Assembly (NCBI GenBank): GCA_029936175.1
Contig: JAPYUI010000006.1
Span: forward strand, 20,973 to 62,457
Source: Kiritimatiellia bacterium
Lineage (GTDB): Bacteria > Verrucomicrobiota > Kiritimatiellia > SS1-B-03-39 > UBA6053
Direction of reading: 5' to 3'
Length of the DNA stretch: 41,485 bases
The position numbers and the translations under genes were made by a program. The notes under the pieces are model-generated. The model searched no databases. It was not told the origin of the DNA and was given only the letters and a program-made list of their open reading frames with translations. This document shows, in pieces, positions 23,978 to 38,622 of this stretch; within the stretch, counting starts at the first letter, position 1; each line of letters starts with the position of its first letter.

Positions 23978-24006
23978 AAAAAGATCGGCCCCTGCGGAGG
24001 GCAGCC
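23978..24006 (-). terminator. Rho-independent terminator at end of the seven-gene operon
   Basis: Reverse strand GGC-TG-CCCT-CCGC-AGGG-GCC-GATCTTTTT: 7 paired bp with a 2-nt bulge, 4-nt loop and a T run, 13 bp after the GT4 stop. Confidence 0.6.
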
Positions 24007-24018
24007 CGGTGATCCGTC

Positions 24019-25281
24019 TCAGTCGATCGCCTGGAGAAAGGCCTCGGCCATGTGCTGACTGCTGAATTTCCGGCCTACAACCGACCGGGCCTGCGCCGCT
24101 TCCTCGCGGAGGCCGGGAAGATCAGCCAATGCCCGCTTAAAACCCCCCGCGAGATCGTCGGCCGGACAGATCAAGCCGCCGCCGATCATTTCGACCAGCT
24201 CGGGAAAGGCGCCGCGATCGGGCAGCACCACCGGCACCGCGCTCGCAAGGGCTTCGAGTACGTAGAGGCCGAACGCTTCATCGTAGAGCGGAGGTGTGCA
24301 GAGGAAACTCAAGCCACGGAGGAATTCCTGCTTTTCTGCACGGGACATATTGGGGAAGACCTTTACATCGCCCCCATGGCCGGCGTCGTTGATCTTTTCC
24401 AGCAAGCCGTCCACGAATTTCACATCCTGGTTCACCTTGCTTCCACCGAGGTGTAGCCGGACTGCGGCATGTGCAGGATCCTGCTTGAGTGCCAGCCAGG
24501 CATCCACCAGGGATGCCAGACCCTTGGGCGCACACATGCGGGCAAGGAAACCGATCACCGGCGGATCGGGGGCCTTTTCTGCCGGGCCATAACCATCCAG
24601 CTGGAGGCCATTATACACCAGTCTCACCTGCTCGTCGGCTATACGCATGCAACGCTTCATCTTTCCCGCATACGAGACACTTACGGCGTGGTAGACGTCG
24701 ATGTATTTGGAATTCTGATGCAACATCTCCCAGACATCATCGGTGTATTCACCGAGCGTCTCGATAAAGCAGTCCTCCCCCTGCAAGGTGCAGACGACCT
24801 TGCATCCGAGTTCCGCCTTCAACTTCCTCGCCACACCATTAAGCATGGCATTGGACAGCACGACCACATCCGGCTTTCGTGGCTGCGCCTTGATCCAGTT
24901 CACCATGCGGTCGAGTTCCTTGGCCTGGTAACCCTCTTCGCCGCGCTGCATCGACAGGGTCATTGCCGCGAGTTCATGCGCATCGGTCATGCCCTCATGT
25001 TTCATTGCATTGCGGATCAATCCCCGGTGATCAAATAGGCGATCAACGAAGCGCGGGGTTTTCCGAAAAATCGGAAATTTTTGCTGCAGGTAACAGTTAA
25101 TGCCGCCAAAAAACAGCGGGCCCCTGGCATGCGCAACTTCTTCCAGCACGTGAGGAAGGTACATTTCCAGCACCGTAACCTCGTGGCCTTGCAGGCAAAG
25201 TTCCCGAACCAGGGTATGATCCCGCAGGCAGGTGCCGCAGAAGAAATTACCTGTTCCGGGAATCAGGAAGTGGAACTTCAC
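24019..25281 (-). CDS. Glycosyltransferase family 4 (GT-B) protein
   Basis: 420 aa; GTGNFFCGTCLRDHTLVRELCLQGHEVTV, VIGFLARMCAPKGLASLVDAW, PPLYDEAFGLYVLEALASAVPVVLPDRGAFPELVE. Confidence 0.92.
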   Translation of the reverse strand: MKFHFLIPGTGNFFCGTCLRDHTLVRELCLQGHEVTVLEMYLPHVLEEVAHARGPLFFGGINCYLQQKFPIFRKTPRFVDRLFDHRGLIRNAMKHEGMTDAHELAAMTLSMQRGEEGYQAKELDRMVNWIKAQPRKPDVVVLSNAMLNGVARKLKAELGCKVVCTLQGEDCFIETLGEYTDDVWEMLHQNSKYIDVYHAVSVSYAGKMKRCMRIADEQVRLVYNGLQLDGYGPAEKAPDPPVIGFLARMCAPKGLASLVDAWLALKQDPAHAAVRLHLGGSKVNQDVKFVDGLLEKINDAGHGGDVKVFPNMSRAEKQEFLRGLSFLCTPPLYDEAFGLYVLEALASAVPVVLPDRGAFPELVEMIGGGLICPADDLAGGFKRALADLPGLREEAAQARSVVGRKFSSQHMAEAFLQAID

Positions 25282-26546
25282 GCGGGTGCCGGGGCGATAT
25301 GCGGATTTCCATGCGGAACGGGCTCGGGGATGTCCGCAAACTCACTCACCGCTTCAAACAGGGCGTCGAAATCTTTCTCCACGTTGCCAATCAGGCAGTC
25401 GGTCAGGTCACCCCGCAGGTGCGGATGCTTCTTAATCACCGCGCCAAAACTGAAATTGGGATCGTAGAAGGCATAGACCAGTTTGCGCATGGCCTCGAGT
25501 CCCCCCCGGAACTTCTCGCCGTATTCAGTGAACCGGGCGGCACCGAAGTCGCCTACCGACAAGGCCTCATCGACGGCGTCCGCGGCCAGGACCCCGCTGT
25601 ACAGGGCGAGGAACAAGCCGGACGAAAACACGGGATCGAGGAAGGAAAAGGCGTCACCGGTGAGCACCAGGCCATCCGCGGCACAGTATTCCGAACGATA
25701 TGAATAGTCCCCGGTCGCCTGCACGGGCTCGACGCGTTTACCGGTAGACACGTGATCCTTGATCCAGGCATTTTTTTTGATTTCCCGGTCAAGGATCTGC
25801 TCCAGGTCACGGCCGTCACTGAACAGGTAGTCCTTGTCGCCGACCACACCGACGCTGACCCGGTCGTTCTGGAGCGGAATCCACCAGAACCAGTTCTTGT
25901 CATCCACATAGGCCACGGTAGTCGCGCCTTCGTCGAGGCCCGCATCGCGCTTCGCACCTTTGTAGTAGGACCAGATGGCTATTTTTTTGAGTTTCTTGTC
26001 GGGGATACGCCAGCGGTTACGCGAGCAGGCCAGGCCGTCTCGACCGGTTGCATCAATGGTGACCGGCGCGAGGAAGTCCTGCATGGATCCATCGGGCATC
26101 CTGGCGCGCACGCCCTTGGTCACACCCGCTTCCGTAATGAACTCCTTCGCAGCGACGCCTTTCTTAATCGTGGCTCCGCTCTCGCAGGCATGGCAAAGCA
26201 TCATCTTGTCGAAGGAGCTGCGCTCGACCTGCCAGGTCTGGGCCGAAGGGTGATCCATATGCCTGGAAAAGTAAAACGGTACCGAGGCCCCGGCGTCCTG
26301 GCTCACGAATTGCACACTGAACTTCTTGATAAAGCCCGCATCCTTCAGCTTCTCATTCATCCCAATGCGCTCAAGGGGATACCAGCAGAAAGGGATCATC
26401 GACTCGCCAATGTGGTAACGGGGGAAGATGTCCTTCTCCAACACGACCACGTTCCGGCCCTTCTGGGCGAGCAGGGCCGCGGACGAGGCCCCGGCGGGAC
26501 CCCCTCCAACGATCACGGCATCAAAGGCTTGTTCAGCATCCATCAT
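25278..26546 (-). CDS. FAD-dependent oxidoreductase, flavin-dependent halogenase-like
   Basis: GGGPAGASSAALLAQKGRNVVVLEKDIFPRYHIGESMIP; WFWWIP matching WxWxIP; GDAFSFLDPVFSSGLFLAL matching FxxPxxSxG. Start set at the Met at 26546 (CATCAT codons), after the upstream stop. Confidence 0.88.
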   Translation of the reverse strand: MMDAEQAFDAVIVGGGPAGASSAALLAQKGRNVVVLEKDIFPRYHIGESMIPFCWYPLERIGMNEKLKDAGFIKKFSVQFVSQDAGASVPFYFSRHMDHPSAQTWQVERSSFDKMMLCHACESGATIKKGVAAKEFITEAGVTKGVRARMPDGSMQDFLAPVTIDATGRDGLACSRNRWRIPDKKLKKIAIWSYYKGAKRDAGLDEGATTVAYVDDKNWFWWIPLQNDRVSVGVVGDKDYLFSDGRDLEQILDREIKKNAWIKDHVSTGKRVEPVQATGDYSYRSEYCAADGLVLTGDAFSFLDPVFSSGLFLALYSGVLAADAVDEALSVGDFGAARFTEYGEKFRGGLEAMRKLVYAFYDPNFSFGAVIKKHPHLRGDLTDCLIGNVEKDFDALFEAVSEFADIPEPVPHGNPHIAPAPA

Positions 26547-26569
26547 GCATATCCTGTACCCAGCCAGGC

Positions 26570-27127
26570 CTAGGGGGGCAGAATTTCCACCACTTCGGCC
26601 AGCTTCGTGCCATCCAGCAACCACAACTGGTTCTTCCGGCCGTAGAGTTCGTATGCTTGTTCCAGATCAAGCTTTAACGCTTTCTTGATCGCGTTATCTG
26701 CCCGAACCTTGAAGTAGGCCTTGGGGGAACTTCGGTGTTCAATATCGAAAAAAGCCAGCAGCCCACCCAGCGGCTTATGGCCGAGTACGACCGCGTCTGC
26801 AACCGGTACGGGCAGGTGCTCCAGGTTGATGCAAATGGCACCGAACTCGGCGGGCTTTTCGTTCTCCGAACCGATCAGCACCACCATGCGTGCACAGGTT
26901 TTCTCGTCGCGCTCGTGATCGATCACGTGGAGACACATCGACTGCTCGTAGTGCAGCTCCAGGGTCGGGGTCATGTCGTTTTCATGTACCAGCAGGCCCT
27001 TATAGGGCTCCGGCATTTCTTCACGCACGAGCGTTACCAGTTCGGGCGGCGTGTTCCCGGAGCGGGAATAAAAGTACGCGAGCGGATCGAGTCCAGCCAC
27101 ATCCTGGATGGTGGAGTTCTCAAGCAT
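26570..27127 (-). CDS. Chorismate pyruvate-lyase-like (UbiC/UTRA fold) protein
   Basis: 185 aa; LLVHENDMTPTLE resembles LLLTDGSLTxxLE; LGHKPLGGLLAFFDIEHR resembles LGxxPLGxxLF; YGRKNQLWLLDGTKLAEVVEILPP resembles the UbiC C-terminus xxRRSxFxxxGxPLLVxExFLP. Remote similarity judged by eye. Confidence 0.6.
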   Translation of the reverse strand: MLENSTIQDVAGLDPLAYFYSRSGNTPPELVTLVREEMPEPYKGLLVHENDMTPTLELHYEQSMCLHVIDHERDEKTCARMVVLIGSENEKPAEFGAICINLEHLPVPVADAVVLGHKPLGGLLAFFDIEHRSSPKAYFKVRADNAIKKALKLDLEQAYELYGRKNQLWLLDGTKLAEVVEILPP

Positions 27128-28457
27128 ACCGCTGGTTCACATGTTCGGGTAAAAAGAATTCATGGAGGAGCACGTCAATCTGTAGCAGGCCCTGGCGCGT
27201 CACGCTGATAATCGTGTCATCCCGGTCGATAAAGCCCCACTTTTTCATGTGACCCAACTGTTCGGAAAAACGCTCGCGCACATCCACACCAAACTTTTCC
27301 CGGTAATACGCGGGGTCAATCCAACCGAGCTTGAAATGCAGGATGAACTCGCGAATCAACCGTTCTTCGTCGGTCGGGGTCAGGGCCCGATAAATCGGGA
27401 ACTGATCCTTCCCAACCAGGTCCAGGTAGGGATCGATATCATGGTTGTTCTGGTAATGCGTTCCGTTGATATGACCAAAGGAGGCCACGCCGAGCGAAAG
27501 CAGGTCGGCACCCTTCCAGAGCAGGTCGCGATACAGGAACTCTGCATTCTTCCCTTTCTTGACCGCGGTGTAGGCGCTTTTCACCTCGTAACCGGATTGC
27601 TCCAGCTGTTCGTAGGCATAGGTCACCCAGCGGCGTTTCGTCTCCCAGTTGGCGACGGGAGCCTTGAGCATGCCCGACTCCTTCATCCGCTGGTAGATGG
27701 TGGTGTTGTAAGGCACTTCCATCTGGTAGACCGTGATGCTTTCCGGATCCATGGCGATGGCCTTTTCGACGGTCCGCTTCCAGTTGTCCTCGGTCTCCTC
27801 AAGCATCCCTGCAATCAAGTCGATGTTGATTTGCTCAAAGCCCGCATCCTGCGCGGCCTTGTAGGCCCGCTCGATTTCCGGGGTACGGTGGGCCCGGCCA
27901 TTGATCTCCAGGATATGATCGTCGAGATTCTCGACCCCCAGGCTCAAGCGGGTGATGCCCAGGTCCTTGATGACCTTGATCTTTTTTTCCGTCAGGGTGC
28001 CCGGCTCGCACTCGAAGGCGATTTCCTTCGCATCACTCCAGGAAAGGCGTTTGTCCATTTCCTCCACCAGTTCTCTCAGCATGTCCGTCGACAGAAACGA
28101 AGGGGTTCCGCCACCAAAATAGATGAAGCTGGGCTTGCGGTTTCCAATGAAGGGCTGGGCGGTGTACATGTCCAGCTCCTTGAGCGCCGCCGCAACGTAA
28201 TCCTTGATCTCGGCTGATTTCGCACCGGTATACACCCGGAAGTAGCAGAAGTGGCAACGCTTTCGGCAGAAGGGAATGTGCAGGTACATACCGAGAGGAT
28301 TGCCCGGCTCCGGCGAACGCGCCATGGCGTCCTGGATCTCGTTCACCTTATCGGGCGACCAAAAGGAATACGGAGGATAATTGGAAATGAAAAAATTTCC
28401 AACCTCGGTCGCGCCTTTCAACTCATAATCGGAGGAATCGCTCGCTTGCTTACTCAT
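27120..28457 (-). CDS. HemN/HemW-like radical SAM protein
   Basis: MYLHIPFCRKRCHFCYF (CxxxCxxC), PSFIYFGGGTPSFLS, LGVENLDDHILEINGRAHRTPEIERAYKAAQDAGFEQINIDLIAGMLEET. Start moved to MSKQASDS at 28457. Confidence 0.93.
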   Translation of the reverse strand: MSKQASDSSDYELKGATEVGNFFISNYPPYSFWSPDKVNEIQDAMARSPEPGNPLGMYLHIPFCRKRCHFCYFRVYTGAKSAEIKDYVAAALKELDMYTAQPFIGNRKPSFIYFGGGTPSFLSTDMLRELVEEMDKRLSWSDAKEIAFECEPGTLTEKKIKVIKDLGITRLSLGVENLDDHILEINGRAHRTPEIERAYKAAQDAGFEQINIDLIAGMLEETEDNWKRTVEKAIAMDPESITVYQMEVPYNTTIYQRMKESGMLKAPVANWETKRRWVTYAYEQLEQSGYEVKSAYTAVKKGKNAEFLYRDLLWKGADLLSLGVASFGHINGTHYQNNHDIDPYLDLVGKDQFPIYRALTPTDEERLIREFILHFKLGWIDPAYYREKFGVDVRERFSEQLGHMKKWGFIDRDDTIISVTRQGLLQIDVLLHEFFLPEHVNQRYA

Positions 28458-29625
28458 GGTCCGTGTCTTTTCTCTCTCCAAAGGCATACACCGAACCGTC
28501 AAGGCTGCCAATGTATATATGCCCGTCGGCCACCGAGGGGGAGCCCTGCACCGGCTCTCCAATTTCGAAAGACCAGATTTCTTCGCCGGTTTTCAGGCTC
28601 AGCATGTACAGAAATCCGTCATCGGATCCCACCACGACCTTGTCGCCGCTGATGACCGCCGAACTATCGATCGCCCCACGCGTTTTAAAATGCCAAAGCT
28701 CCTCCCCCGTTGCCCGGTCGAGGCAGTGCACCCGCTTATCGCGCCCCCCGATGACGACGACATCATCGGTCAGCGCCGGGGTTGCGTAGAAGGGAAAGGA
28801 GCGATCCTTGAAGGTCCAGGCCACGACACCGGATACGATATCGACGCATTGCACGACTTCCCCGTAGTGACCGACGTAAATGTGCCCGTCCTTCCCGGCC
28901 AGGGAGCCGGCAATGTATGCGCCCATCGAAATGCCGTTGAGCAATTTTCCGTTTTCGAGATCCACGACATGCACGATTTCGTCGCAACCACCGACCACGG
29001 CCTTATTGGCCATGATACAGGGGGTCCCATTGATAAAATTCTCGGACTCGTACTTCCAGATGACCTTGCCGGTGTCGGCGTCTACGCAGTGGATAAAAAA
29101 GTCGTAGCTGCCGACAACGATACGCAACACACCATCCTCGCCGGTATAATGATTGGCTGCCCCGAGTATCCGGTCGTCGGTTTCATAGGCCCATAATTTC
29201 TCGCCCGTCTGCAGCTTCAACGCGTAAAGCGACCCGTCACCGGAGCCCACGAAGACAACGCCGTCCAGCACCAGCGGAGAGGATTCCACTTCGCCCTCCG
29301 TCTTGAAGTCCCAGACCTTTTTCCCGGTGTCCTTATCCAGGCAGTACACCTTTTCATCCCCGGAACCGAACACGGCCTTATCGCCCACGATGGCGACAGA
29401 GGACTTGACTTCAAATTCCGTCTTGAAGGTCCAGAGGAGTTCCAGCTTGTCGGGCAGCTTCCCCGGGGCAAGGCCGATGAGGGACGGGCCGCCGCGGTAC
29501 ATGTAGAAATTCTCCCCACCGGCACCCACGGGCGGATCCGCCTCGGCTATGACCCCCGGCTCGACCGCGTCGCAGGCGATACCCAGCAGTAGGCACCCGA
29601 CAAAATAACCCCTACAGAGCCGCAT
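28450..29625 (-). CDS. PQQ-like beta-propeller repeat protein, exported (possible lipoprotein)
   Basis: Repeats of the type GEELWHFKTRGAIDSSAVISGDKVVVGSDDGFLYMLSLKTGEEIWSFEIGEPVQGSPSV; N-terminus MRLCRGYFVGCLLLGIAC. Start moved to 29625. Confidence 0.92.
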   Translation of the reverse strand: MRLCRGYFVGCLLLGIACDAVEPGVIAEADPPVGAGGENFYMYRGGPSLIGLAPGKLPDKLELLWTFKTEFEVKSSVAIVGDKAVFGSGDEKVYCLDKDTGKKVWDFKTEGEVESSPLVLDGVVFVGSGDGSLYALKLQTGEKLWAYETDDRILGAANHYTGEDGVLRIVVGSYDFFIHCVDADTGKVIWKYESENFINGTPCIMANKAVVGGCDEIVHVVDLENGKLLNGISMGAYIAGSLAGKDGHIYVGHYGEVVQCVDIVSGVVAWTFKDRSFPFYATPALTDDVVVIGGRDKRVHCLDRATGEELWHFKTRGAIDSSAVISGDKVVVGSDDGFLYMLSLKTGEEIWSFEIGEPVQGSPSVADGHIYIGSLDGSVYAFGERKDTDHE

Positions 29626-30811
29626 GAAACAGGGCCTCAAAATGCGTAATCTCGATTTCACGCGGGTTGAACATGGCGGTCCACTGCTGGCTGGCCTCCC
29701 GGGCCAGCTCGGGAATCTTGTGCGGCTCGACATGCAGGTCGCGGAGGGACTTTTTCAGTTTCATCATTTCCAGCAGGGCTTCAACCTGCTCGACCAGGGC
29801 CTGCACCGCAGAGGCCGAATCGTCGCCGGCCCCGGAGAGGCCAGCTGATACCGCCAGGGCATGGTAAAGAGCGGCTGCTTCAGGATCTTCGCCGTTAAAT
29901 CGAATCACGTGCGGCAGCATCACCCCTACCGCCTGGCCGTGCACCGTGTTGTAATGCGCGGTTAAGGGGTTGGCGCAGGAGTGCGCGGCACCCAGCATGC
30001 TGTTCTCGATTGCCATGCCAGCCAGGGCGGCACCCAGTTGCAGGGCCCCACGCTTCTCCACGTTGGTCGGATCGTCGACGATGCAGGAAAGGTTCTTCAC
30101 GATAAGCGAAAAAGCCTTGTGTGCATACAACAGGGAGACGGGGTTTCGCGCATTGGTCACCGCGGTCTCCACGGCATGGGTCAAGGCATCGATGCCGGTG
30201 ACCGAGGCGACATGAAAGGGCTGGGAAAGCGTGAGCAGTGGATCGAGGATGCTGATCTTTGCGGCGGCCCGCAAATCCCCGCAGGCCATTTTCATGTGGG
30301 AGGTCTCATCGGCAATCAACGCAAAGGACTGGCATTCACTCCCCGTCCCCGCTGTCGTCGGAATCGCGATCAGCGGAAGCATCTCCTTCCGGGCTTTGCC
30401 CCTGCCCCAATAGTCCTTCATCTGGCCCCCATTGGTAAGCAGAAAGTTGCAGCCCTTGGCGGTATCCATGCTGCTGCCGCCACCCAGGCCGACGATACAA
30501 TTAATCGGCGCGCTCTTGGCCAGGTCCAGGCAGTCATCAACATCCCGGGTCGTAGGATTTTCGCGCACTTTATCGTACACCAAGATCTGGATACCCGCCA
30601 GGGTGAGTGAATCAGCGAGCCGGTCGAAATGCCCGGCCTCGACGATGCCGGGGTCGGTGACGATGAGGACATTGGTGGCGCCCAACTCCTTCGCCAGGGC
30701 TCCGGCCTGATCCATCGCCCCCACCCCCTGCACCAGGCGGGTGGGCCGCTGCAGCAGGTCGAGGGTTAACCTGGCGGACGGGTCAGGCAAGGTCTTCGCT
30801 CCGACTGACAT
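29612..30811 (-). CDS. Iron-containing alcohol dehydrogenase
   Basis: IVGLGGGSSMDTAKGCNFLL, IAIPTTAGTGSECQSFALI, GIDALTHAVETAVT, GAAHSCANPLTAHYNTVHGQAVGVMLPHVIRFN. Confidence 0.96.
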   Translation of the reverse strand: MSVGAKTLPDPSARLTLDLLQRPTRLVQGVGAMDQAGALAKELGATNVLIVTDPGIVEAGHFDRLADSLTLAGIQILVYDKVRENPTTRDVDDCLDLAKSAPINCIVGLGGGSSMDTAKGCNFLLTNGGQMKDYWGRGKARKEMLPLIAIPTTAGTGSECQSFALIADETSHMKMACGDLRAAAKISILDPLLTLSQPFHVASVTGIDALTHAVETAVTNARNPVSLLYAHKAFSLIVKNLSCIVDDPTNVEKRGALQLGAALAGMAIENSMLGAAHSCANPLTAHYNTVHGQAVGVMLPHVIRFNGEDPEAAALYHALAVSAGLSGAGDDSASAVQALVEQVEALLEMMKLKKSLRDLHVEPHKIPELAREASQQWTAMFNPREIEITHFEALFHAAL

Positions 30812-32237
30812 GAATAGCCCTCCGGCGGTACAGGAACTCGAACAAGTTGCCCTCGTGGGGTTGGTTCCACTCGACAAAGGCGGTCGGTACGCGGCCGATA
30901 TTCAAGCGGGGGATATCGGAAGATGCCAGCAGGGCCTCGATAAAAGGTCGATCTTCGGTGACGGCCGAGACCACCAGGCTGGGGCCGATCTGCTCCAGCA
31001 TCTGGTCCTGGGGAACTTCCACCACGCAGGCATATGGAAAGAGGTACTCCGTCCGGGCGAGCGGACGATCGATCGTGTCCGCATAGCAGAGCGTGGGCTG
31101 CAGGAAGGTGCTGCCGTTCAGCTGGACCAGGCGTTCCCCCTGGCGGAACCGTGCCGTTATATCCTCCACCCCGGAACCCTGCAACTCGTCGTCAATCCTG
31201 GCGTTGATCGATTCGGCGACCGCGGGGTTGGCGAAAGCAGAAAGCGCCGCGCTTTCATCGTCGAGGGGCCTGGGTTGGATTTCGGCCAGTTTTTTCGCCA
31301 GGGCCTCGGCGAGCTCCCGGCCCTTGCGCGGGACGATAATCGCCGAGGCGTTGATGCAGGAACGACCGCCCCCGCGCGCGACGGATGCGACCAACACATC
31401 GAGGTACGCTTCATAGTCATCGATTTGATCCTCCCCGATGAGTACCTTGCTGAAACCCGGTCCGTGAATGGAGACCGAATCGTCCTGCGCGTACTTTTGC
31501 ACGGTCTTGGCGTCGCCAAAGAGGATGGATCGTCCGGTCATCTCCAGGACCGCGCCCGAACCCTCGTGCGTAGTCGGGTAAAAACAGAAGGCCTCCTTCG
31601 GGCAACCGGCGGCCATGAAAGCCTGCATGAGACGGAAAGGCGTCCAGGGCTCCTCGCGACCCGGCTTCATGATCACCGGAATCTTCAGGGTGAGCGAAGG
31701 CAGCCAGAGGGAATTCACGCCGGGCGAATTGCTGGGGAGGATAATCCCGAGCGAATGCGAGGTGGGAAAGTAGCTGTAAGCCATGCCGTCCTGCTCGACG
31801 ATCCCCTTGTCCAGCACGGAGAGATCGAGCCCGCGCGAGAGGCCCGCGAGGACGGTGTCGGTGTTGCCCAGCACGTAATGGATCTTCTCCATGTTCTGGC
31901 GAACCATGACCTGGGGCAGGCCGCTGGTCGCCGAGAGGTTCTCGATGTACTGCTCAGCGCTCTGGGTATCGTCACCGAGGGGCAGGGTGCCTCCCATGAA
32001 GAGCTCGCCCGCCTTGCGGGAGATCTCGACCAGTTCGGCGACGGTTTTCTGTCCGAGCGCGTCGTATGCCTGCTTGACCTTTTTCAGGTCGCGACGAATG
32101 AGCCCGGCATTGACCACGCTGGTCCGGGCGAGAACCTCCCCGGTCCGGCAGTCCGGGATATCATTCAAGTCAAGGCTCTGGTAGGCCTCGCCAAATCGCA
32201 ATGCGGGTATGTGCGCTATACTCATCATTCCATCCAT
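30783..32237 (-). CDS. Aldehyde dehydrogenase-superfamily protein (candidate reductive, LuxC/EhpG-like)
   Basis: 484 aa; GIILPSNSPGVNSLWLPSLTLKIPVIMKPGREEPWTPFRLMQAF, catalytic-Cys segment GGGRSCINASAIIVP, C-terminal NLFEFLYRRRAIHVS. Confidence 0.9.
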   Translation of the reverse strand: MDGMMSIAHIPALRFGEAYQSLDLNDIPDCRTGEVLARTSVVNAGLIRRDLKKVKQAYDALGQKTVAELVEISRKAGELFMGGTLPLGDDTQSAEQYIENLSATSGLPQVMVRQNMEKIHYVLGNTDTVLAGLSRGLDLSVLDKGIVEQDGMAYSYFPTSHSLGIILPSNSPGVNSLWLPSLTLKIPVIMKPGREEPWTPFRLMQAFMAAGCPKEAFCFYPTTHEGSGAVLEMTGRSILFGDAKTVQKYAQDDSVSIHGPGFSKVLIGEDQIDDYEAYLDVLVASVARGGGRSCINASAIIVPRKGRELAEALAKKLAEIQPRPLDDESAALSAFANPAVAESINARIDDELQGSGVEDITARFRQGERLVQLNGSTFLQPTLCYADTIDRPLARTEYLFPYACVVEVPQDQMLEQIGPSLVVSAVTEDRPFIEALLASSDIPRLNIGRVPTAFVEWNQPHEGNLFEFLYRRRAIHVSRSEDLA

Positions 32238-32282
32238 CGGCCCCTAAACGTGCCCTGCTGTCCGGGAACCTACCCTTCAGCC

Positions 32283-32350
32283 TCTTCCGACAAGCGGGAA
32301 GACTTTCAGCCTGTTTTTCCACGTCTGGAAAAAGCGCGGAAAAGTCTTCC
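32283..32350 (-). promoter_or_regulatory. Nested inverted repeats in the 5' leader of the ALDH operon
   Basis: Perfect 10-bp arms GGAAGACTTT (32297-32306) / AAAGTCTTCC (32341-32350) enclosing perfect 8-bp arms TTTTTCCA (32314-32321) / TGGAAAAA (32326-32333) with 4-nt loop; TCTTCC (32283-32288) can alternatively pair with GGAAGA (32297-32302). Confidence 0.55.
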
Positions 32351-32474
32351 TATGATCAGAAGGCGCCATCTATAAAGATATTCACATTTTTGGGAAGAAA
32401 TATGACGGGAAAAGCCCCGGTTTTTCGTGCAACTATCACGGAACGAGGGTTTTCTGGGGATCTCCTACCCTCAC

Positions 32475-32696
32475 ATGACTACAAAGCCGAACAGAACGAA
32501 GCGCAAACACGGGCAGGTCTCGCCTGAAACCCGGGCGCGAAAACGCCGGGTCTTTTTTTTCAGCATGCTCGGGATCGTGGTGGCCTGGCTGATTCTCTCG
32601 TTTTACCTCGTGCTGAGCGGGAACCTGGAGGAATGGATGGAGCGGAAAGAAAAACCGACGCCGGATCCGCGGATGGAACGGTTGGAAGATTTCTAG
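32475..32696 (+). CDS. Small single-TM basic protein
   Basis: MTTKPNRTKRKHGQVSPETRARKRRVFFFSMLGIVVAWLILSFYLVLSGNLEEWMERKEKPTPDPRMERLEDF: basic N-terminus, one clear TM helix, charged tail. Confidence 0.55.
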   Translation: MTTKPNRTKRKHGQVSPETRARKRRVFFFSMLGIVVAWLILSFYLVLSGNLEEWMERKEKPTPDPRMERLEDF

Positions 32697-32748
32697 CACG
32701 AACCCGGCCCATCCTGCAGGACGCCGACGGAGCACGAAGGGTTAAACC

Positions 32749-33822
32749 CTAATATACGCCCTCGACGATCGTCTTCTTCTGGGCGCCAAAGGGGCGAACC
32801 TGCCCGGCCCCGTCCCACGGATACCCCTCCGTGCCCTCGCAGCGCATGGCTTCGTCACGCTCGAGGAAACGCGGCATGAAGAGTTCCCGGGTCAACGTGG
32901 TCAACTCCACCCGGCCGAAGGCGCCATAGGACACGAGCTCCACGGTATTTTCGGGGTCGACCACGCGGGTGACCGCGCGGGGCTGGGGCGCGTAGTAGGT
33001 GATGGCGTAATCGTCTTCGGCCTTCAGCGGCTTGCTGTGCGCCAGTCCCATGAGCGTATTGCCGTAAACCGGCTTAAACGCAACCTCGCCTTCAAGAACT
33101 TCCTCGATGAGAAAGCGGACGTTTTGCGGATTCATTTCGGTGCCCCCGCAAAAAACACCCTTGATCCCGGCATCGGGAATGGACACTTTTTCGCTGAGTG
33201 CCTCGAGCAGCTTGGGGGTGGTGAACAGGGCGCTGACCGCGCGATGCTTCATGATCAACAGGGCCTGGTCGATCACGTGCTCCATGTAGCCCTTGGCCTG
33301 GTCGTACTCGCCGCGGGAAATCAACTTCTTCACCCAGCGTGGATCGAGGTCGACGAAGTAGCAACTGCCGCCCCGGTGATTCGCGAGATGCTCGATGGAA
33401 AGGCGCAGGCGACGCGGACCCGTCGGGCCCATCATCAACCAGTTCTCGCCCTTGGGAAATTCGAGGTCATCGAGCGTGTCGGAGAAACTTTCGTAGTCGT
33501 GCTTGTAGTCGTCCCAGCCGATGCGCTGCTTGGGCATCCCGGTGGTGCCGCCGGTTTCAAAAATGGAATAAGCGCGGCCCTCGTATTGCTTCGGCACCCA
33601 GCGATCGGGTTGCTCGTAGCGCAGCCAGTCGTCCTCGAAATGCGGAAAACGCGCAACGAGGTCAGCGAAGGTCTTAACCTCCGCGCGGGGATCCCAACCG
33701 GCCTTTCCCACCCACTCCAGCCAAAAGGGACATCCGGTTTCCGGGGAAAAATGCCAGTCGATGATTTCAACCAGGTGCTGGTTCAGGGCCTCTTTTGCTG
33801 CTTCAGGTGTCTGCGTATTCAT
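32749..33822 (-). CDS. ANL-superfamily adenylate-forming enzyme, EhpF-like, without C-terminal lid domain
   Basis: 357 aa; WHFSPETGCPFWLEW, SIFETGGTTGMPKQRI (P-loop-like A3 motif), MMGPTGPRRLRLSIEHLANHRGGSCYFVDLDPRWV, FKPVYGNTLMGLA; the ORF ends soon after the N-domain. Confidence 0.8.
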   Translation of the reverse strand: MNTQTPEAAKEALNQHLVEIIDWHFSPETGCPFWLEWVGKAGWDPRAEVKTFADLVARFPHFEDDWLRYEQPDRWVPKQYEGRAYSIFETGGTTGMPKQRIGWDDYKHDYESFSDTLDDLEFPKGENWLMMGPTGPRRLRLSIEHLANHRGGSCYFVDLDPRWVKKLISRGEYDQAKGYMEHVIDQALLIMKHRAVSALFTTPKLLEALSEKVSIPDAGIKGVFCGGTEMNPQNVRFLIEEVLEGEVAFKPVYGNTLMGLAHSKPLKAEDDYAITYYAPQPRAVTRVVDPENTVELVSYGAFGRVELTTLTRELFMPRFLERDEAMRCEGTEGYPWDGAGQVRPFGAQKKTIVEGVY

Positions 33823-33863: not shown

Positions 33864-35417
33864 TTACTTTGGAAAAAAACGCCGGATGGTATCCGGATGG
33901 GGTGCCGGGGTGAGTAAACTGACCACGAACATGGCTATCGCGCCCGCAGCAAAACAAAGGGCCACGGGCATAATCCGGCCCCCCACCGCGTACTCCCCGC
34001 CATAGCCGGAAAGGTGGAAGAACCAGAGCCAGGTGAGCATGGCGGCCACGATCGAGGCATAAGCCCCGGCCTTGGTCGCACGCTTCCAGTACAGGGCGGA
34101 AAATACCAGCGGCGTAAGGGCGGCAAAGCCACTGAAGCTCCATATCGCCAGGTCGAAAATATTCTTGGGAGCGAGGAGGGAGAGAACGTAGGTCAGGGCC
34201 ACGACACCCACCACGAAACACCGGGCGATGCTTATAATCTGCCGATCATCATACCGTCCGGGGCCCGCGCGATGCAGCACGATGTCGTTGGTGAACATCG
34301 ATCCCAGGCAGAGGAACTGCGAATCCAGCGAGGACATGACGGCCGCGAGGATCCCCGCGGTGACCAACCCGATGATCACCGGGCTGTGGATCAGCTTGGC
34401 GACCATGATGCTGAGCACGGCCCCCACCTTGTCGTCGGTCAAGGGCGGCATGCCCGCCGCAGACCCGGTGGCCCAGACCCCGATAAGCACGCAGGGCACC
34501 CAGACGATCATGATGCAGACCGGGTGCATGATGACAGTCAGCTTAAAGCTCTTCGCATCCCGCGCGGTCAACCAGTGCTGAAAGATATGGGGAAACATCC
34601 CCACGCTCATGGGGATAAACATGTAGCTCAAGAACATGAGTGGCGGGACCCCCACGTGTCGCACGAACTCGTGCTCGCCACTGCCCAGGGTGATGCTTGA
34701 GGGCGTTCGGACCAGGTGCTCGGGATTGGCCTGCTGGATCGCGGCATGCAGGCCTCCCAGCTTGTTGGAGATCAGCACGAACGCGAGGATGCCCATGCAC
34801 ATGAACACCAGGGTTTGAAAGGTGTTGGCCCAGGCGGCCGATCGCGAGCCCCCGGCAAAAACATAGGAGAGCACAACCGCACAGACCACGAACCCGCTGA
34901 GCCAGGGAGGCACGGCACCGATCCAGTCCGGGTCGGCGCTGAAGGTATGGGGAAACATCCCCTTGGTCATGCCCAGTATGGTTTTCTCCGCCCCCAGGAT
35001 CCCGATTAGCAGGTAGGGAACCACGAGGCCCACCAGGATAGGAAACAACAGGTAGCCCAGCCGATTGGACTCGAAGCGCTGGCGGAAAAACTGGATCTGG
35101 GTGACGTAGCCATACTTTTTCCCGATGGCCCAGAGCCGAATCCCGATGAAGTAGAAGCAGAGGGCGTGTATGAGACCGGAGGAAGAAGCCATCAATCCGT
35201 AGGTCCCGATCCCTCGCTGGAAGGCCTTTCCGGTGGACCCCACCAGCGCGAAGGCGGTCATGGTGGTGCCGAATACCGACATGAGCAGCATGAACGGACC
35301 GATGCTGTGGCTGGCTACGAAATAATCCTTGCTCGTCCCGCGGAAGAAAAACTTGCTGGCCAAGCCCAGGCACAGCAAGGCAAGCAGGTAAACCAGGACG
35401 ATCACCAGGGAGATCAT
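33864..35417 (-). CDS. Sodium:solute symporter (SSS family)
   Basis: 517 aa, about 13 TM helices; FFRGTSKDYFVASHSIGPFMLLMSVFGTTMTAFALVGSTGKAFQRGIGTYGLMAS, SSLDSQFLCLGSMFTNDIV. Confidence 0.94.
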   Translation of the reverse strand: MISLVIVLVYLLALLCLGLASKFFFRGTSKDYFVASHSIGPFMLLMSVFGTTMTAFALVGSTGKAFQRGIGTYGLMASSSGLIHALCFYFIGIRLWAIGKKYGYVTQIQFFRQRFESNRLGYLLFPILVGLVVPYLLIGILGAEKTILGMTKGMFPHTFSADPDWIGAVPPWLSGFVVCAVVLSYVFAGGSRSAAWANTFQTLVFMCMGILAFVLISNKLGGLHAAIQQANPEHLVRTPSSITLGSGEHEFVRHVGVPPLMFLSYMFIPMSVGMFPHIFQHWLTARDAKSFKLTVIMHPVCIMIVWVPCVLIGVWATGSAAGMPPLTDDKVGAVLSIMVAKLIHSPVIIGLVTAGILAAVMSSLDSQFLCLGSMFTNDIVLHRAGPGRYDDRQIISIARCFVVGVVALTYVLSLLAPKNIFDLAIWSFSGFAALTPLVFSALYWKRATKAGAYASIVAAMLTWLWFFHLSGYGGEYAVGGRIMPVALCFAAGAIAMFVVSLLTPAPHPDTIRRFFPK

Positions 35418-35647: not shown

Positions 35648-35759
35648 GGGGAACTATTGCACCGCATCCCGCTAAAAAGTGCAAGATTAAGTGTTTTCCC
35701 ATCGACGAGGCCAAGGCAAACCCAGCATCATGAACCGGAATCAATCCAGGGGCACAACC

Positions 35760-36686
35760 ATGAAACATTCGATCCGCCTGGCCGCGATATGCGGCCTTTT
35801 CAGCCATATCCTGTTCGCGGAGGAGGCCATCACCCTCCGCCTCAAGTGGCAACCCGGCAAGACCTACCAGATGTCGACCGTCACGAAATCCAACACCCGG
35901 ATGAGCATGGGCGGCCAGGATATCAGCCAGAAGCACACGATCAACCAGGACCTGTCGATGACGGTCAGCCAGGCCGATGACCGGAACCAGATGGAGGTGA
36001 CCACGACCTTTGGGCGCATGGCCATGGACCTGTCGATGGGGGGGCAATCCGTAATGAGCGTGGATTCAGCCAAGCCGGAAACCGTGGCGGGACCGATGGC
36101 GGAAGTCACAAAAATGGTGGGCGAGTCATTCACCTTCGTCGTCGACCAGGATGCGAAGATCGTCGCGTACAAGGACCTGAAGGCCCTGCTCGGGGACGCA
36201 GCGAGCAATCCGATCGCGGCCGCCCTGATGGACGAACAGAAACTGAAGGATATGTCGGGCCAGGGCATGCTCCAGGCCCTTCCCGAGAAGGCGGTGAACC
36301 CGGGCGACACCTGGCCCTTCAAGGTTGAAATCCCCCTCCCCCAGGTGGGCGACATGGCCGTAAATGGCCGCTACACCTTTGAGCGCATGGATGTCTTTGA
36401 AGGGCATGCCTGCGCGGTCATCACGCTGACCGCAGACATCAAGGCCGATTTCAGCGGGCTCGACGAGGTCAATCCCCAGGCAAAGGCCATGGGTTTGAAA
36501 ATTGATAAGGGGAGCATGAGCGGGACCTATTACCACGACAATGCCCTCGGCATGGCCCGCCAGACGATCATCCGGCAGCACTTCGACATGACGATGAAGA
36601 ATCCCGTGGACGGGGAAGCGATGACCATTCCCGTCGATCAAAGTACGACAACGACGGTCAAGAAGGTCGAAGATACGAAGAAATAG
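35760..36686 (+). CDS. DUF6263-like secreted protein
   Basis: Signal peptide MKHSIRLAAICGLFSHILFAEE; KWQPGKTYQMSTVTKSNTRMSMGGQDISQKHTINQDLSMTV..., ALPEKAVNPGDTWPFKVEIPLPQVG. Start set at ATG 35760. Confidence 0.72.
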   Translation: MKHSIRLAAICGLFSHILFAEEAITLRLKWQPGKTYQMSTVTKSNTRMSMGGQDISQKHTINQDLSMTVSQADDRNQMEVTTTFGRMAMDLSMGGQSVMSVDSAKPETVAGPMAEVTKMVGESFTFVVDQDAKIVAYKDLKALLGDAASNPIAAALMDEQKLKDMSGQGMLQALPEKAVNPGDTWPFKVEIPLPQVGDMAVNGRYTFERMDVFEGHACAVITLTADIKADFSGLDEVNPQAKAMGLKIDKGSMSGTYYHDNALGMARQTIIRQHFDMTMKNPVDGEAMTIPVDQSTTTTVKKVEDTKK

Positions 36687-36723: not shown

Positions 36724-38622
36724 ATGCCTACCCGGTACAGATGGGGTATCGCGATCGTCGCCGGCCTGCTGGTCCTGGCGGGGATACGGATCCTCCGCCC
36801 CTCGCACCCGCAAATGGAAAGGTCCTCCCCGGCGACGGAAGCCCGGGTCACCAATCGCCCCCTGGAAATCGCGGAAGATCCGTACATCGGCTCGCAGGCC
36901 TGCCGGGAATGCCACAAAAAGGAATTTGCAAGCTGGCATCATTCCTACCACCGGACGATGACCCGCAAGGCGACGCCGGAGAATGTACTGGGGAACTTTG
37001 ACCAGGTCCACTTGACCTACGCGGGCCGGGCGTTCCGATTATCCCGCGATGCGGACACCTTCCAGGTATCCTTTACCGAGCATGAATCGGGCCGGGAGGT
37101 GACGCAACCGGTCGTGATGACAACCGGGCGGCATCACATGCAGTTCTACTGGATGGCAACGGACAAGGGACGTCAGACCGCAAAATTTCCCTTCGTCTGG
37201 CTGCTGCCGGAAAAACGCTGGGTTCCCGCGGATGTCACCTTCCTCAAGCCCCCGGATGTACAGACCAGCCTGGAAATCGGGCAATGGAATTACAATTGCA
37301 TCGCCTGCCACACCACCGGCGGAGAGCCCGGCCTCTCCTTCAAGGATGATCCGTCGCTGCATCGAGACACGATTGAAGGAATGGAGACCCGGGCGTCGGA
37401 ATTCGGCATCGCCTGCGAGGCCTGCCACGGACCCGGCCGGGACCACGTGCTCGCACAGGCGGACACCCACACGGCAGACGACCGGTACATCACGCACCCG
37501 GAATCCCTGCCCGGGCATCTATCCTCCCAGGTTTGTGGGCAATGCCACAGTATCCAGGTGCCCCGCAGCGCGGTCGATCACCGGGCGCTCCTGCAGACGG
37601 GCAACCCCTATCGACCCGGTAGCGACCTCTTCGACGCGACACGCTCCGCCACCCTGGTGATGCAACAGGCGCATTTTGCAACGTACACGAACACGCAACC
37701 CCTGAACCCGGACTTCATGGCCACCCGCTTCTGGTCAGACGGCATGGTGCGCGTGTCCGGGAGAGAATTTAACGGCTTGATCGAGTCGCCCTGCTATACC
37801 CACGGGGACCCCGTGCGCGGGATCATGTCCTGCATGTCCTGCCACACCATGCATCCCGGGGAAAGCAGCGACCTGGACGCGTGGGCGGATGACCAGTTGA
37901 AACCCGGCATGCGCGGCAACCGGGCCTGCCTGCAGTGCCACGAGGACTACCAGGGCGAGGCCCTCACCCGCCATACCCACCACGCGAGCGGGTCCAGCGG
38001 GTCGCTCTGCTATAACTGCCACATGCCCTATACAACCTACGGCCTGCTCAAGGGCATTCGCAGCCACACCATCGATATACCTTCCGTGCTGACTGCCCAG
38101 GAAACCGGGCGACCCCTGGCCTGTAACCAATGCCACCTCGATCAGACCCTGGCCTGGACGGCGAGCCGACTGGAGGCCTGGTACGGCATCAGCCCACCGC
38201 CGCTCAGCCCGGAGGATGAGAACCTGGCCGCTTCCGTCCGCTGGACCCTGCAGGGGGACGCCGGGCAACGAGCCCTGATGGCCTGGAACTTCGGCTGGGA
38301 ACCGGCACGGGACGCTTCCGGTGAATCGTGGATCCCGCCCTACCTGATCATCCTGCTGAATGACCCCTATGACGCGGTGCGCATGATTGCCCACCGCAGC
38401 CTGAAAACCTATGCGGGTTACCGCTACACCGGATACGATCCCCTGGCTGACAGCACCGGGCGCCGGATGGCGATCGGGAAAGCCCTGGGGATCTGGCGGT
38501 CCCGTTTCGACGGCCCGGCACATCCGGCCGTGTTGATACGCGGCAAGGGCGCATTCGACCGGGTCAGGGCCAATACCTTGCTCGCTCGCCGCGACAACCG
38601 GCGGGTGACCCTCGACGAGTAG
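36724..38622 (+). CDS. Octaheme cytochrome c (membrane-anchored) with HEAT-like C-terminal segment
   Basis: Eight CxxCH motifs: CRECH, CIACH, CEACH, CGQCH, CMSCH, CLQCH, CYNCH, CNQCH; N-terminal TM anchor. Confidence 0.93.
   Translation: MPTRYRWGIAIVAGLLVLAGIRILRPSHPQMERSSPATEARVTNRPLEIAEDPYIGSQACRECHKKEFASWHHSYHRTMTRKATPENVLGNFDQVHLTYAGRAFRLSRDADTFQVSFTEHESGREVTQPVVMTTGRHHMQFYWMATDKGRQTAKFPFVWLLPEKRWVPADVTFLKPPDVQTSLEIGQWNYNCIACHTTGGEPGLSFKDDPSLHRDTIEGMETRASEFGIACEACHGPGRDHVLAQADTHTADDRYITHPESLPGHLSSQVCGQCHSIQVPRSAVDHRALLQTGNPYRPGSDLFDATRSATLVMQQAHFATYTNTQPLNPDFMATRFWSDGMVRVSGREFNGLIESPCYTHGDPVRGIMSCMSCHTMHPGESSDLDAWADDQLKPGMRGNRACLQCHEDYQGEALTRHTHHASGSSGSLCYNCHMPYTTYGLLKGIRSHTIDIPSVLTAQETGRPLACNQCHLDQTLAWTASRLEAWYGISPPPLSPEDENLAASVRWTLQGDAGQRALMAWNFGWEPARDASGESWIPPYLIILLNDPYDAVRMIAHRSLKTYAGYRYTGYDPLADSTGRRMAIGKALGIWRSRFDGPAHPAVLIRGKGAFDRVRANTLLARRDNRRVTLDE

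Follow-up and report, generated by a model that had tools for sequence, protein, structure and literature searches.

What does a run of seven tightly packed minus-strand genes do in this bacterium, and do these genes really belong together? An earlier, sequence-only reading of the window (the whole 41,485-nucleotide stretch analysed here) had taken them for a real functional unit, complete in itself and free of polyketide synthase genes, that makes, reduces and tailors an aromatic acid. Here, we find that these genes form the central part of a set of about 15 that is kept or lost together by unrelated Verrucomicrobiota, Acidobacteriota and planctomycete bacteria. We propose, with a probability of about 0.5, that this set makes, tailors and moves a 4-hydroxybenzoate-type aromatic compound via a dedicated pathway. 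The features concerned are as follows.

33864..35417, minus strand: SSF sodium:solute symporter, 517 aa, first conserved-block gene in the window (Pfam SSF, 3.3e-33)
32749..33822, minus strand: EhpF-like adenylating enzyme (ANL) without the usual C-terminal domain, 357 aa (phmmer)
32475..32696, plus strand: small divergent ORF between ANL and ALDH, 73 aa, one hydrophobic stretch
32297..32350, no strand: inverted repeat 5' of ALDH, possibly an operator or other regulatory site
30783..32237, minus strand: EhpG-like ALDH-fold enzyme, 484 aa (Pfam Aldedh, 5.5e-13)
29612..30811, minus strand: iron-type alcohol dehydrogenase, Fe-ADH (Pfam Fe-ADH, 1.4e-50)
28450..29625, minus strand: BamB/ACSF4-like PQQ-repeat beta-propeller with an N-terminal signal-like segment (Pfam Beta-prop_ACSF4, 3.8e-74; PQQ_2, 3e-46)
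27120..28457, minus strand: HemN-like radical SAM protein (Pfam Radical_SAM, 1.2e-22; HemN_C, 4.9e-7)
26570..27127, minus strand: UbiC/DUF98-fold protein, 185 aa, candidate chorismate pyruvate-lyase (predicted fold)
25278..26546, minus strand: flavin-dependent halogenase-type FAD protein of the PltA/CmlS/ChlB4 group (phmmer, motifs)
24019..25281, minus strand: GT4-family glycosyltransferase, 420 aa, last conserved block gene in the window genome (Pfam Glycos_transf_1, 1.2e-15)
23988..24002, minus strand: terminator-like hairpin and T-run 3' of GT4

All seven minus-strand ORFs lie in the window where the sequence-only reading had placed them. With homologue-supported starts (Fe-ADH at 30811, its longest ORF starting at 30877; propeller at 29625; radical SAM at 28457; FAD at 26546), the junctions agree exactly with the 4-29 bp overlaps and single 23-bp gap that it had described: the overlaps are 29 bp for ALDH/Fe-ADH, 14 for Fe-ADH/propeller, 8 for propeller/radical SAM, 8 for radical SAM/UbiC-like and 4 for FAD/GT4, and the gap separates the UbiC-like and FAD genes. 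The nested palindrome reported upstream is also real, with arms at 32297-32321 and 32326-32350 that are 76% complementary and a smaller repeat nested inside. The proposed terminator does have a hairpin with a T-run (24002-23988), but it is weak evidence alone because the number of terminator-like sites in the 12.2 kb scanned (16) is near the mean for shuffled sequence (12.2). GT4 directly follows the FAD gene in the fullest clusters of relatives. Similarly, the ANL gene is upstream on the same strand, as claimed, but 511 bp from ALDH, with the divergent 73-codon ORF (32475-32696) in between. This ORF, preferred over a minus-strand 99-aa ORF (32436-32735) that was dismissed as a gene, gave no convincing tblastn match in any relative locus and is probably outside the pathway.

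The claim of a functional unit is borne out by the relatives. In Opitutaceae, Roseibacillus and Phycisphaera the genes are collinear and form part of a 15-gene cluster (loci L081, L089, L094, L096, L098, L099 and L110) in the order PQQ2-SSF-ANL-ALDH-FeADH-PQQ-rSAM-UbiC-FAD-GT4-thioesterase-small membrane protein-PaaK-like ANL-ABC-FtsX; a nine-gene block occurs in loci L021 and L028-L031, and SSF is collinear with ANL in L021, L028, L029, L031 and the seven loci of the 15-gene cluster. The earlier description of the pathway as 'complete', and the boundaries drawn for it, were too narrow: the extra genes of the relatives (thioesterase, small membrane protein, PaaK-like ANL, ABC/FtsX and further propellers) sit on three other contigs in the window genome. 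Counted together with ANL and SSF, the seven genes make up the first two thirds of this conserved set of about 15.

Among 388 Verrucomicrobiota genomes searched, the radical SAM protein and the small membrane protein (F14) mark an identical 19; the PaaK-like ANL (ANL2) is found in these and two more, and the UbiC-like gene in 17. The EhpF-like ANL has one orthologue in each of the 19 radical SAM-positive genomes and in none of the 13 negative genomes tested. FAD protein, thioesterase, F14 and ANL2 are single high-scoring orthologues in 12 of 12 tested genomes, even where the genes are dispersed. The tightest neighbours are the radical SAM and UbiC-like genes (adjacent in 58 of the 71 loci with room), which persist together where the remaining genes have scattered. 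The gene set, its order and its co-retention were computed directly, as were the folds and catalytic motifs given below, and the conservation of order across phyla, together with co-occurrence in 19 of 388 genomes, rules out a chance arrangement.

Most of the earlier family assignments hold (ALDH, Fe-ADH, PQQ_2/ACSF4 propeller, radical SAM with HemN_C, Trp_halogenase/CmlS-like FAD and GT4). The ANL and ALDH are, as had been suggested, an EhpF/EhpG-type pair, with carboxylate reduction as the predicted function. The ANL, which belongs to a type of about 360 aa with a conserved ...EGVY end, matches the EhpF structures 3l2k/3hgu over residues 14-357 (phmmer E 1.6e-44) and adjoins the EhpG-like ALDH, in which Cys294 is invariant and an invariant His258 occupies the position of the general-base Glu of ordinary ALDHs. 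EhpG-type homologues adjoin EhpF-like genes on plasmids, and such pairs are found again in Streptomyces, Pantoea and a haloarchaeon; on a Halalkalicoccus plasmid the SSF-ANL-ALDH trio is found in the same order (SSF 27% identical). The best plasmid relative of ANL2 (39.8%) lies beside genes for phenylphosphate carboxylase, which leads from phenol to 4-hydroxybenzoate.

The UbiC-like and FAD proteins had been expected to belong to folds or families with aromatic chemistry, and both do. The FAD protein matches a halogenase (phmmer 7e-57) and PltA (5e-51) and carries the halogenase motifs (FAD-binding motif, catalytic Lys, WxWxIP and FxxPxxSxG). In 20 aligned members from Verrucomicrobiota, Acidobacteriota and Phycisphaera, the FAD-binding motif, Lys75, WFWxIP and FxDPVFSxG (FxDPVFSSG) are invariant, and Lys75 aligns with the Lys pair of PltA, ChlB4 and 3e1t. 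Related motifs occur in oxygenases too, and the enzyme is predicted either to halogenate or to hydroxylate.

Searches with Pfam, NCBIfam and phmmer gave nothing for the UbiC-like protein, and none of 43 members matches PF04345 (UbiC) or PF01947 (Rv2949c-like) at E 0.1. It is the predicted fold that supports the assignment: the AF2 model (pLDDT 93.9) has the DUF98/chorismate-lyase fold, common also to UTRA ligand-binding domains, with Foldseek matches to DUF98 2nwi (6.7e-8, TM 0.63/0.72) and E. coli chorismate lyase 1g81 (8.7e-5). A full-length profile match to one PF01947 protein (P 1.2e-6) was also found. The invariant residues are M52, R80, E94, R164 and E181; Arg80 and Glu181, invariant in all 43 sequences, align with DUF98 chorismate-lyase residues. 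Arg80 also aligns with active-site Arg76 of UbiC, but Glu181 falls one residue off UbiC Glu155 (MAFFT). An Azospirillum homologue that keeps 14 of 16 invariant residues shares its operon with genes for PabB and an aminotransferase IV. The protein is thus a candidate chorismate pyruvate-lyase. However, the aromatic acid must have another origin as well: the gene is broken in the complete genome G229 and lacking in genome G316 and in several Acidobacteriota although the rest of the set is kept, and therefore chorismate cannot be the sole entry.

The radical SAM protein carries CxxxCxxC (CRKRCHFC) and a HemN_C domain and matches HemN (PDB 1olt, 7e-32) and NocN (5e-29). The HemW label given to it earlier has to be dropped, as it scores 187.8 bits against the TIGR00539 cut-off of 205.4. 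It likewise falls short of the cut-off for HemN coproporphyrinogen oxidase (191.3 bits against 325 for TIGR00538), and an invariant YRDxLWxGxD block stands in place of the HemN FQGYTT stretch. The propeller looks BamB-like and is unlikely to be a quinoprotein dehydrogenase: it has about 390 aa, against a catalytic domain of about 550-600 aa in quinoprotein alcohol dehydrogenases, and the vicinal Cys pair, present in 2 of 54 relatives, is lacking in the window protein. For F14, neither Pfam nor the PDB offered a match, nor did the AF2 model (pLDDT 86.5, five helices) resemble any known fold significantly; 'EamA-like' is only an impression.

How might these proteins work together? We infer each reaction, the reaction order and the product. 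The UbiC-like protein would form 4-hydroxybenzoate by removing pyruvate from chorismate or a closely related compound, and ANL2 would join the 4-hydroxybenzoate to CoA as a thioester. The FAD enzyme belongs to a group that favours carrier- or thioester-bound substrates and would then halogenate or hydroxylate the ring, and the radical SAM enzyme would add a methyl/C1 unit or make some other radical change. After release of the acid by the 4HBT thioesterase, the EhpF/EhpG pair would reduce the carboxylate to the aldehyde, Fe-ADH would give the benzylic alcohol, and GT4 would glycosylate it. The ABC/FtsX pair and small membrane protein may serve export, with BamB-like propellers in the periplasm, and SSF (with a TonB-dependent receptor in several genomes) may take up the acid or product. 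As claimed earlier, the set is polyketide synthase-free: none of the cluster loci yielded a carrier protein (ACP) or a ketosynthase (scored as the KS Cys plus HGT motif pair). Rule-based cluster finders would probably overlook the set, because it has no ketosynthase or NRPS to key on. A lanthanophore or siderophore reading, considered in view of the TonB receptor and 4-hydroxybenzoate, was set aside, as NIS synthetase and NRPS are lacking in the block.

Two other readings of the set, both of which we consider unlikely, must be weighed against a dedicated biosynthetic pathway. The set could serve uptake and a largely catabolic or detoxifying conversion, in which the TonB receptor and SSF import an aromatic or other carboxylic acid that is activated, reduced and modified, with the UbiC-like protein as an optional helper. 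Its dispensability would fit, as would the trio on the Halalkalicoccus plasmid and the TonB receptors found beside the cluster in five or more genera. However, GT4, ABC/FtsX, radical SAM and halogenase-type FAD proteins are typical of biosynthesis, ring-cleavage genes are not recurrent in the loci, and catabolism does not usually run from an acid towards an alcohol. Alternatively, the product could be a cofactor, quinone or membrane-lipid head group, that is, a conserved cellular molecule and not a secreted metabolite. Single-copy orthologues are co-retained over several phyla even when dispersed round the genome, and such retention is unlike a rapidly turning-over secondary-metabolite cluster; yet the distribution is patchy, with the set in 19 of 388 Verrucomicrobiota genomes but in none of the 11 others of the window's own order, and prenyltransferase and UbiD-type genes do not recur in the block.

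More doubtful still is the view that the UbiC-like protein is a ligand-binding (UTRA-like) protein, or a recruited partner of the radical SAM enzyme, in a pathway not derived from chorismate. The fold shared with GntR/UTRA effector domains, and the pairing with the radical SAM gene that holds amid dispersal, speak for it, but the Arg80 and Glu181 shared with DUF98 chorismate lyases and the PabB neighbour in Azospirillum speak against it. We tentatively suggest a dedicated, hitherto undescribed pathway that crosses phyla (Verrucomicrobiota, Bryobacterales and Phycisphaerae) and may lead to one conserved aromatic molecule (a pigment, metallophore, signal or cofactor). Its core would consist of an uncharacterised chorismate-lyase family and a new HemN-like radical SAM reaction. 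The cluster offers a defined set of genes, open to testing, for a predicted aromatic compound in phyla with poorly known chemistry, and points to an uncharacterised chorismate-lyase-fold family beyond the sight of Pfam as well as a HemN-like radical SAM family that has a single constant partner.

No description of this gene combination was found in open-access PMC papers, but its parts recall several known systems. The UbiC-like protein shares its fold, Arg80 and probably a C-terminal Glu with the Rv2949c/DUF98 and UbiC chorismate pyruvate-lyases, but has no Pfam match and has Ala at the position of UbiC Arg91; its lyase activity is a prediction. Like the HemN-like class C enzymes (NocN, NosN, ChuW and C10P), the radical SAM protein has CxxxCxxC, a HemN-type core and HemN_C, but it falls below every NCBIfam HemN/HemW/ChuW cut-off and differs by its YRDxLWxGxD block. 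Aryl polyene, xanthomonadin and flexirubin clusters combine a 4-hydroxybenzoate-type starter with ANL, 4HBT thioesterase, halogenase-type FAD and export genes; the cluster here resembles them in these genes and in the proposed starter, whereas no ketosynthase motif or ACP occurs in the loci examined. As in phenazine (griseoluteic acid) clusters with EhpF and EhpG, the set here has a full-length EhpF homologue directly followed by an EhpG-type ALDH, and Pantoea, Streptomyces and Proteus carry such a pair too (PMC11278526). However, phenazine core genes (phz) are absent from the window and the loci scanned, and the partners are instead Fe-ADH, radical SAM, UbiC-like and FAD proteins. Finally, the bmp / 4-BP clusters unite a chorismate lyase, a flavin halogenase and a P450; the lyase supplies 4-hydroxybenzoate to the flavin-dependent halogenase, as we propose here, but in those clusters the halogenase takes free 4-hydroxybenzoate as its substrate and decarboxylation accompanies the reaction, and the P450 couples the phenols (PMC10579414). 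No P450 was recognised in the block described here, which has instead a PltA/CmlS-group FAD protein, two ANL enzymes, a thioesterase, an EhpF/EhpG pair, a GT4 glycosyltransferase and a radical SAM enzyme.

The sequence-only reading had described seven minus-strand genes (ALDH, Fe-ADH, PQQ propeller, radical SAM, UbiC-like, FAD and GT4) as an operon for aromatic-acid activation, reduction and tailoring. All seven genes are there, and with homologue-based starts the proposed junctions are exact (overlaps of 29, 14, 8 and 8 bp, a 23-bp gap and a 4-bp overlap). The inverted repeat 5' of the ALDH gene is real; the downstream terminator is plausible, but does not exceed the regional background of such sites. 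An ANL gene does lie upstream on the same strand, together with a sodium:solute symporter gene, and 511 bp containing a divergent 73-codon ORF separate this pair from the ALDH gene. Other features of the window are:
32475-32696, plus strand: this plausible 73-aa ORF, with a single membrane span, inside a cluster whose other genes are all on the minus strand; without relatives among the compared loci
35691-36686: DUF6263 protein, adjoining the next gene
36724-38622, plus strand: multihaem cytochrome-like protein, 632 aa, with Cytochrome_C7 and MtrC-like matches

In a first scan, the UbiC-like gene was found in 18 of 388 Verrucomicrobiota genomes, nearly always adjoining the radical SAM gene and often with the FAD and GT4 genes, and extended loci kept the order SSF-ANL-ALDH-FeADH-PQQ-rSAM-UbiC-FAD-GT4 at roughly 30-60% identity. 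The radical SAM alignment matched at least 577 places in GTDB genomes, the best 80 of which were mostly from Verrucomicrobiota, plus Acidobacteriota (Bryobacterales), one Phycisphaera and one Lentisphaerales. In seven of these best 80 loci the collinear genes number about 15: after GT4 come a thioesterase of the 4HBT type, the small membrane protein F14, the PaaK-like ANL2, and an ABC ATPase with an FtsX permease of 1100 aa. The UbiC-like gene follows the radical SAM gene in 58 of 71 loci with room, and the FAD gene does so in 47 of 64. Two loci (L053:6503-6937 and L054:9798-10217) carry a divergent small lipoprotein gene between thioesterase and F14.

We consider that these genes form one functional module (probability about 0.95). 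The radical SAM and F14 genes occur in an identical set of 19 of the 388 genomes, and ANL2 in the same 19 plus two; the EhpF-like ANL is present in all 19 radical SAM-positive genomes and in none of 13 without it. Identical sets of 19 would arise by chance at about 1e-32 if relatedness is ignored, a figure that relatedness inflates. The carriers represent eight families; elsewhere in the window's own order these genes are absent. Scattering in homologous genomes had been set as a refuting observation for the operon; the genes are indeed scattered in some, yet they are not independent, being co-retained. In Verrucomicrobiaceae they are dispersed, yet every one is retained as a single orthologue. 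In G068, F14 sits between ALDH and ANL, tying the two cluster halves together. The window genome itself holds the remainder on other contigs:
C361: ANL2-ABC-FtsX
C83: thioesterase and two further propellers (TE-PQQ3-PQQ2)
C199: F14

Family assignments are firm for GT4, the Trp_halogenase-type FAD protein, the radical SAM protein with HemN_C, the BamB/ACSF4-type propeller, Fe-ADH and ALDH; by sequence, the symporter also belongs firmly to the SSF family. The ANL is an EhpF homologue over its full length (E 1.6e-44) and so lacks the C-terminal domain typical of ANL enzymes. The ALDH keeps its catalytic Cys and has an invariant His at the general-base Glu position of ordinary ALDHs, as would be expected for reduction of an acyl intermediate, not aldehyde oxidation; its homologues adjoin EhpF-like genes on plasmids of Streptomyces, Pantoea, Burkholderia and haloarchaea. 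On plasmid 2 of the haloarchaeon Halalkalicoccus jeotgali (L168:6511-10569), SSF, EhpF-like and ALDH genes stand in cluster order beside haloacid dehalogenase and amine oxidase genes, and this trio looks like a mobile unit for acid uptake and reduction. The closest solved structures to the FAD protein are the halogenases PltA, ChlB4 and CmlS, and its conserved Lys, WFWxIP and FxDPVFSSG are all invariant. Its closest plasmid-borne relative (34.6%) lies on a 23.7-kb plasmid of Staphylococcus haemolyticus (NZ_CP120084.1:10645-11721), and G194 has three FAD oxidoreductases of its superfamily in tandem (L129:7643-11933), one a second copy of the cluster FAD gene (66%).

The UbiC-like protein was recognized by no sequence library tried. 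With a confident AlphaFold model from 43 orthologues (pLDDT 93.9), Foldseek ranked the DUF98 protein AF1396 first (6.7e-8), followed by UTRA domains and E. coli chorismate lyase, and in profile comparison the family aligned full length with a PF01947 chorismate pyruvate-lyase (P 1.2e-6). Arg80 aligns with UbiC Arg76 and Glu181 with the DUF98 Glu; in the alignment with UbiC itself, this Glu is displaced by one position and Arg91 is lost. The nearest plasmid homologue, in Azospirillum, retains 14 of 16 invariant residues and opens the series UbiC-like-SDR-PabB-aminotransferase IV. We regard the protein as a probable chorismate-type lyase. In these Azospirillum operons (L169:11956-15522, L170:9929-13561) an unannotated chorismate-lyase-fold protein adjoins aminodeoxychorismate synthase, and a Halorussus plasmid (L172:7941-14067) has genes for a PF01947 chorismate pyruvate-lyase, an FAD monooxygenase and MenA close to one for an ANL2-like ligase.

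The module is probably aromatic and chorismate-linked. The UbiC-like gene was lost in G316 (L162), a congener of G229, with the remaining cluster intact; in the complete genome of G229 it is a pseudogene with two stops (L146, G229:C1:57623-58087), the rest again intact; it is missing from several Acidobacteriota, and none was found in the incomplete genome G355. This implies a pathway able to operate without the UbiC-like gene, perhaps by using imported acid, given that SSF is part of the block and TonB-dependent receptors flank the cluster in several genera. At least five genera have such a flanking receptor, which lies either upstream of a third large propeller (PQQ3) or downstream of FtsX:
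L033:3293-5236
L155:8360-10417
L177:12880-14970
L179:8704-10794
L106:20525-
L176, L183 and L185

The reactions of the scheme are all inferred. Chorismate, or imported acid, would supply 4-hydroxybenzoate, which ANL2, whose best plasmid relative adjoins phenylphosphate carboxylase genes, would convert to its CoA thioester. The FAD protein may then halogenate or hydroxylate the ring and the radical SAM protein perform a radical step, before release by the thioesterase. The EhpF-like ANL, EhpG-like ALDH and Fe-ADH would form the acyl-AMP and reduce it to aldehyde and alcohol, GT4 would glycosylate, and ABC/FtsX with F14 would export. In outline we hold this scheme to be an even bet, and in detail much less.

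The pairing of the UbiC-like and FAD proteins would correspond to that of a chorismate lyase with a flavin halogenase in bmp-type clusters (PMC10579414), and the ANL and ALDH resemble EhpF/EhpG of phenazine clusters (PMC11278526); HemN-like radical SAM proteins are known from other natural products (PMC6050322). No published account of the combination of chorismate lyase/halogenase, EhpF/EhpG and HemN-like radical SAM protein was found in the open-access full-text literature searched. As all of its parts are known enzyme kinds, we rate the cluster not as categorically new but as a new combination.
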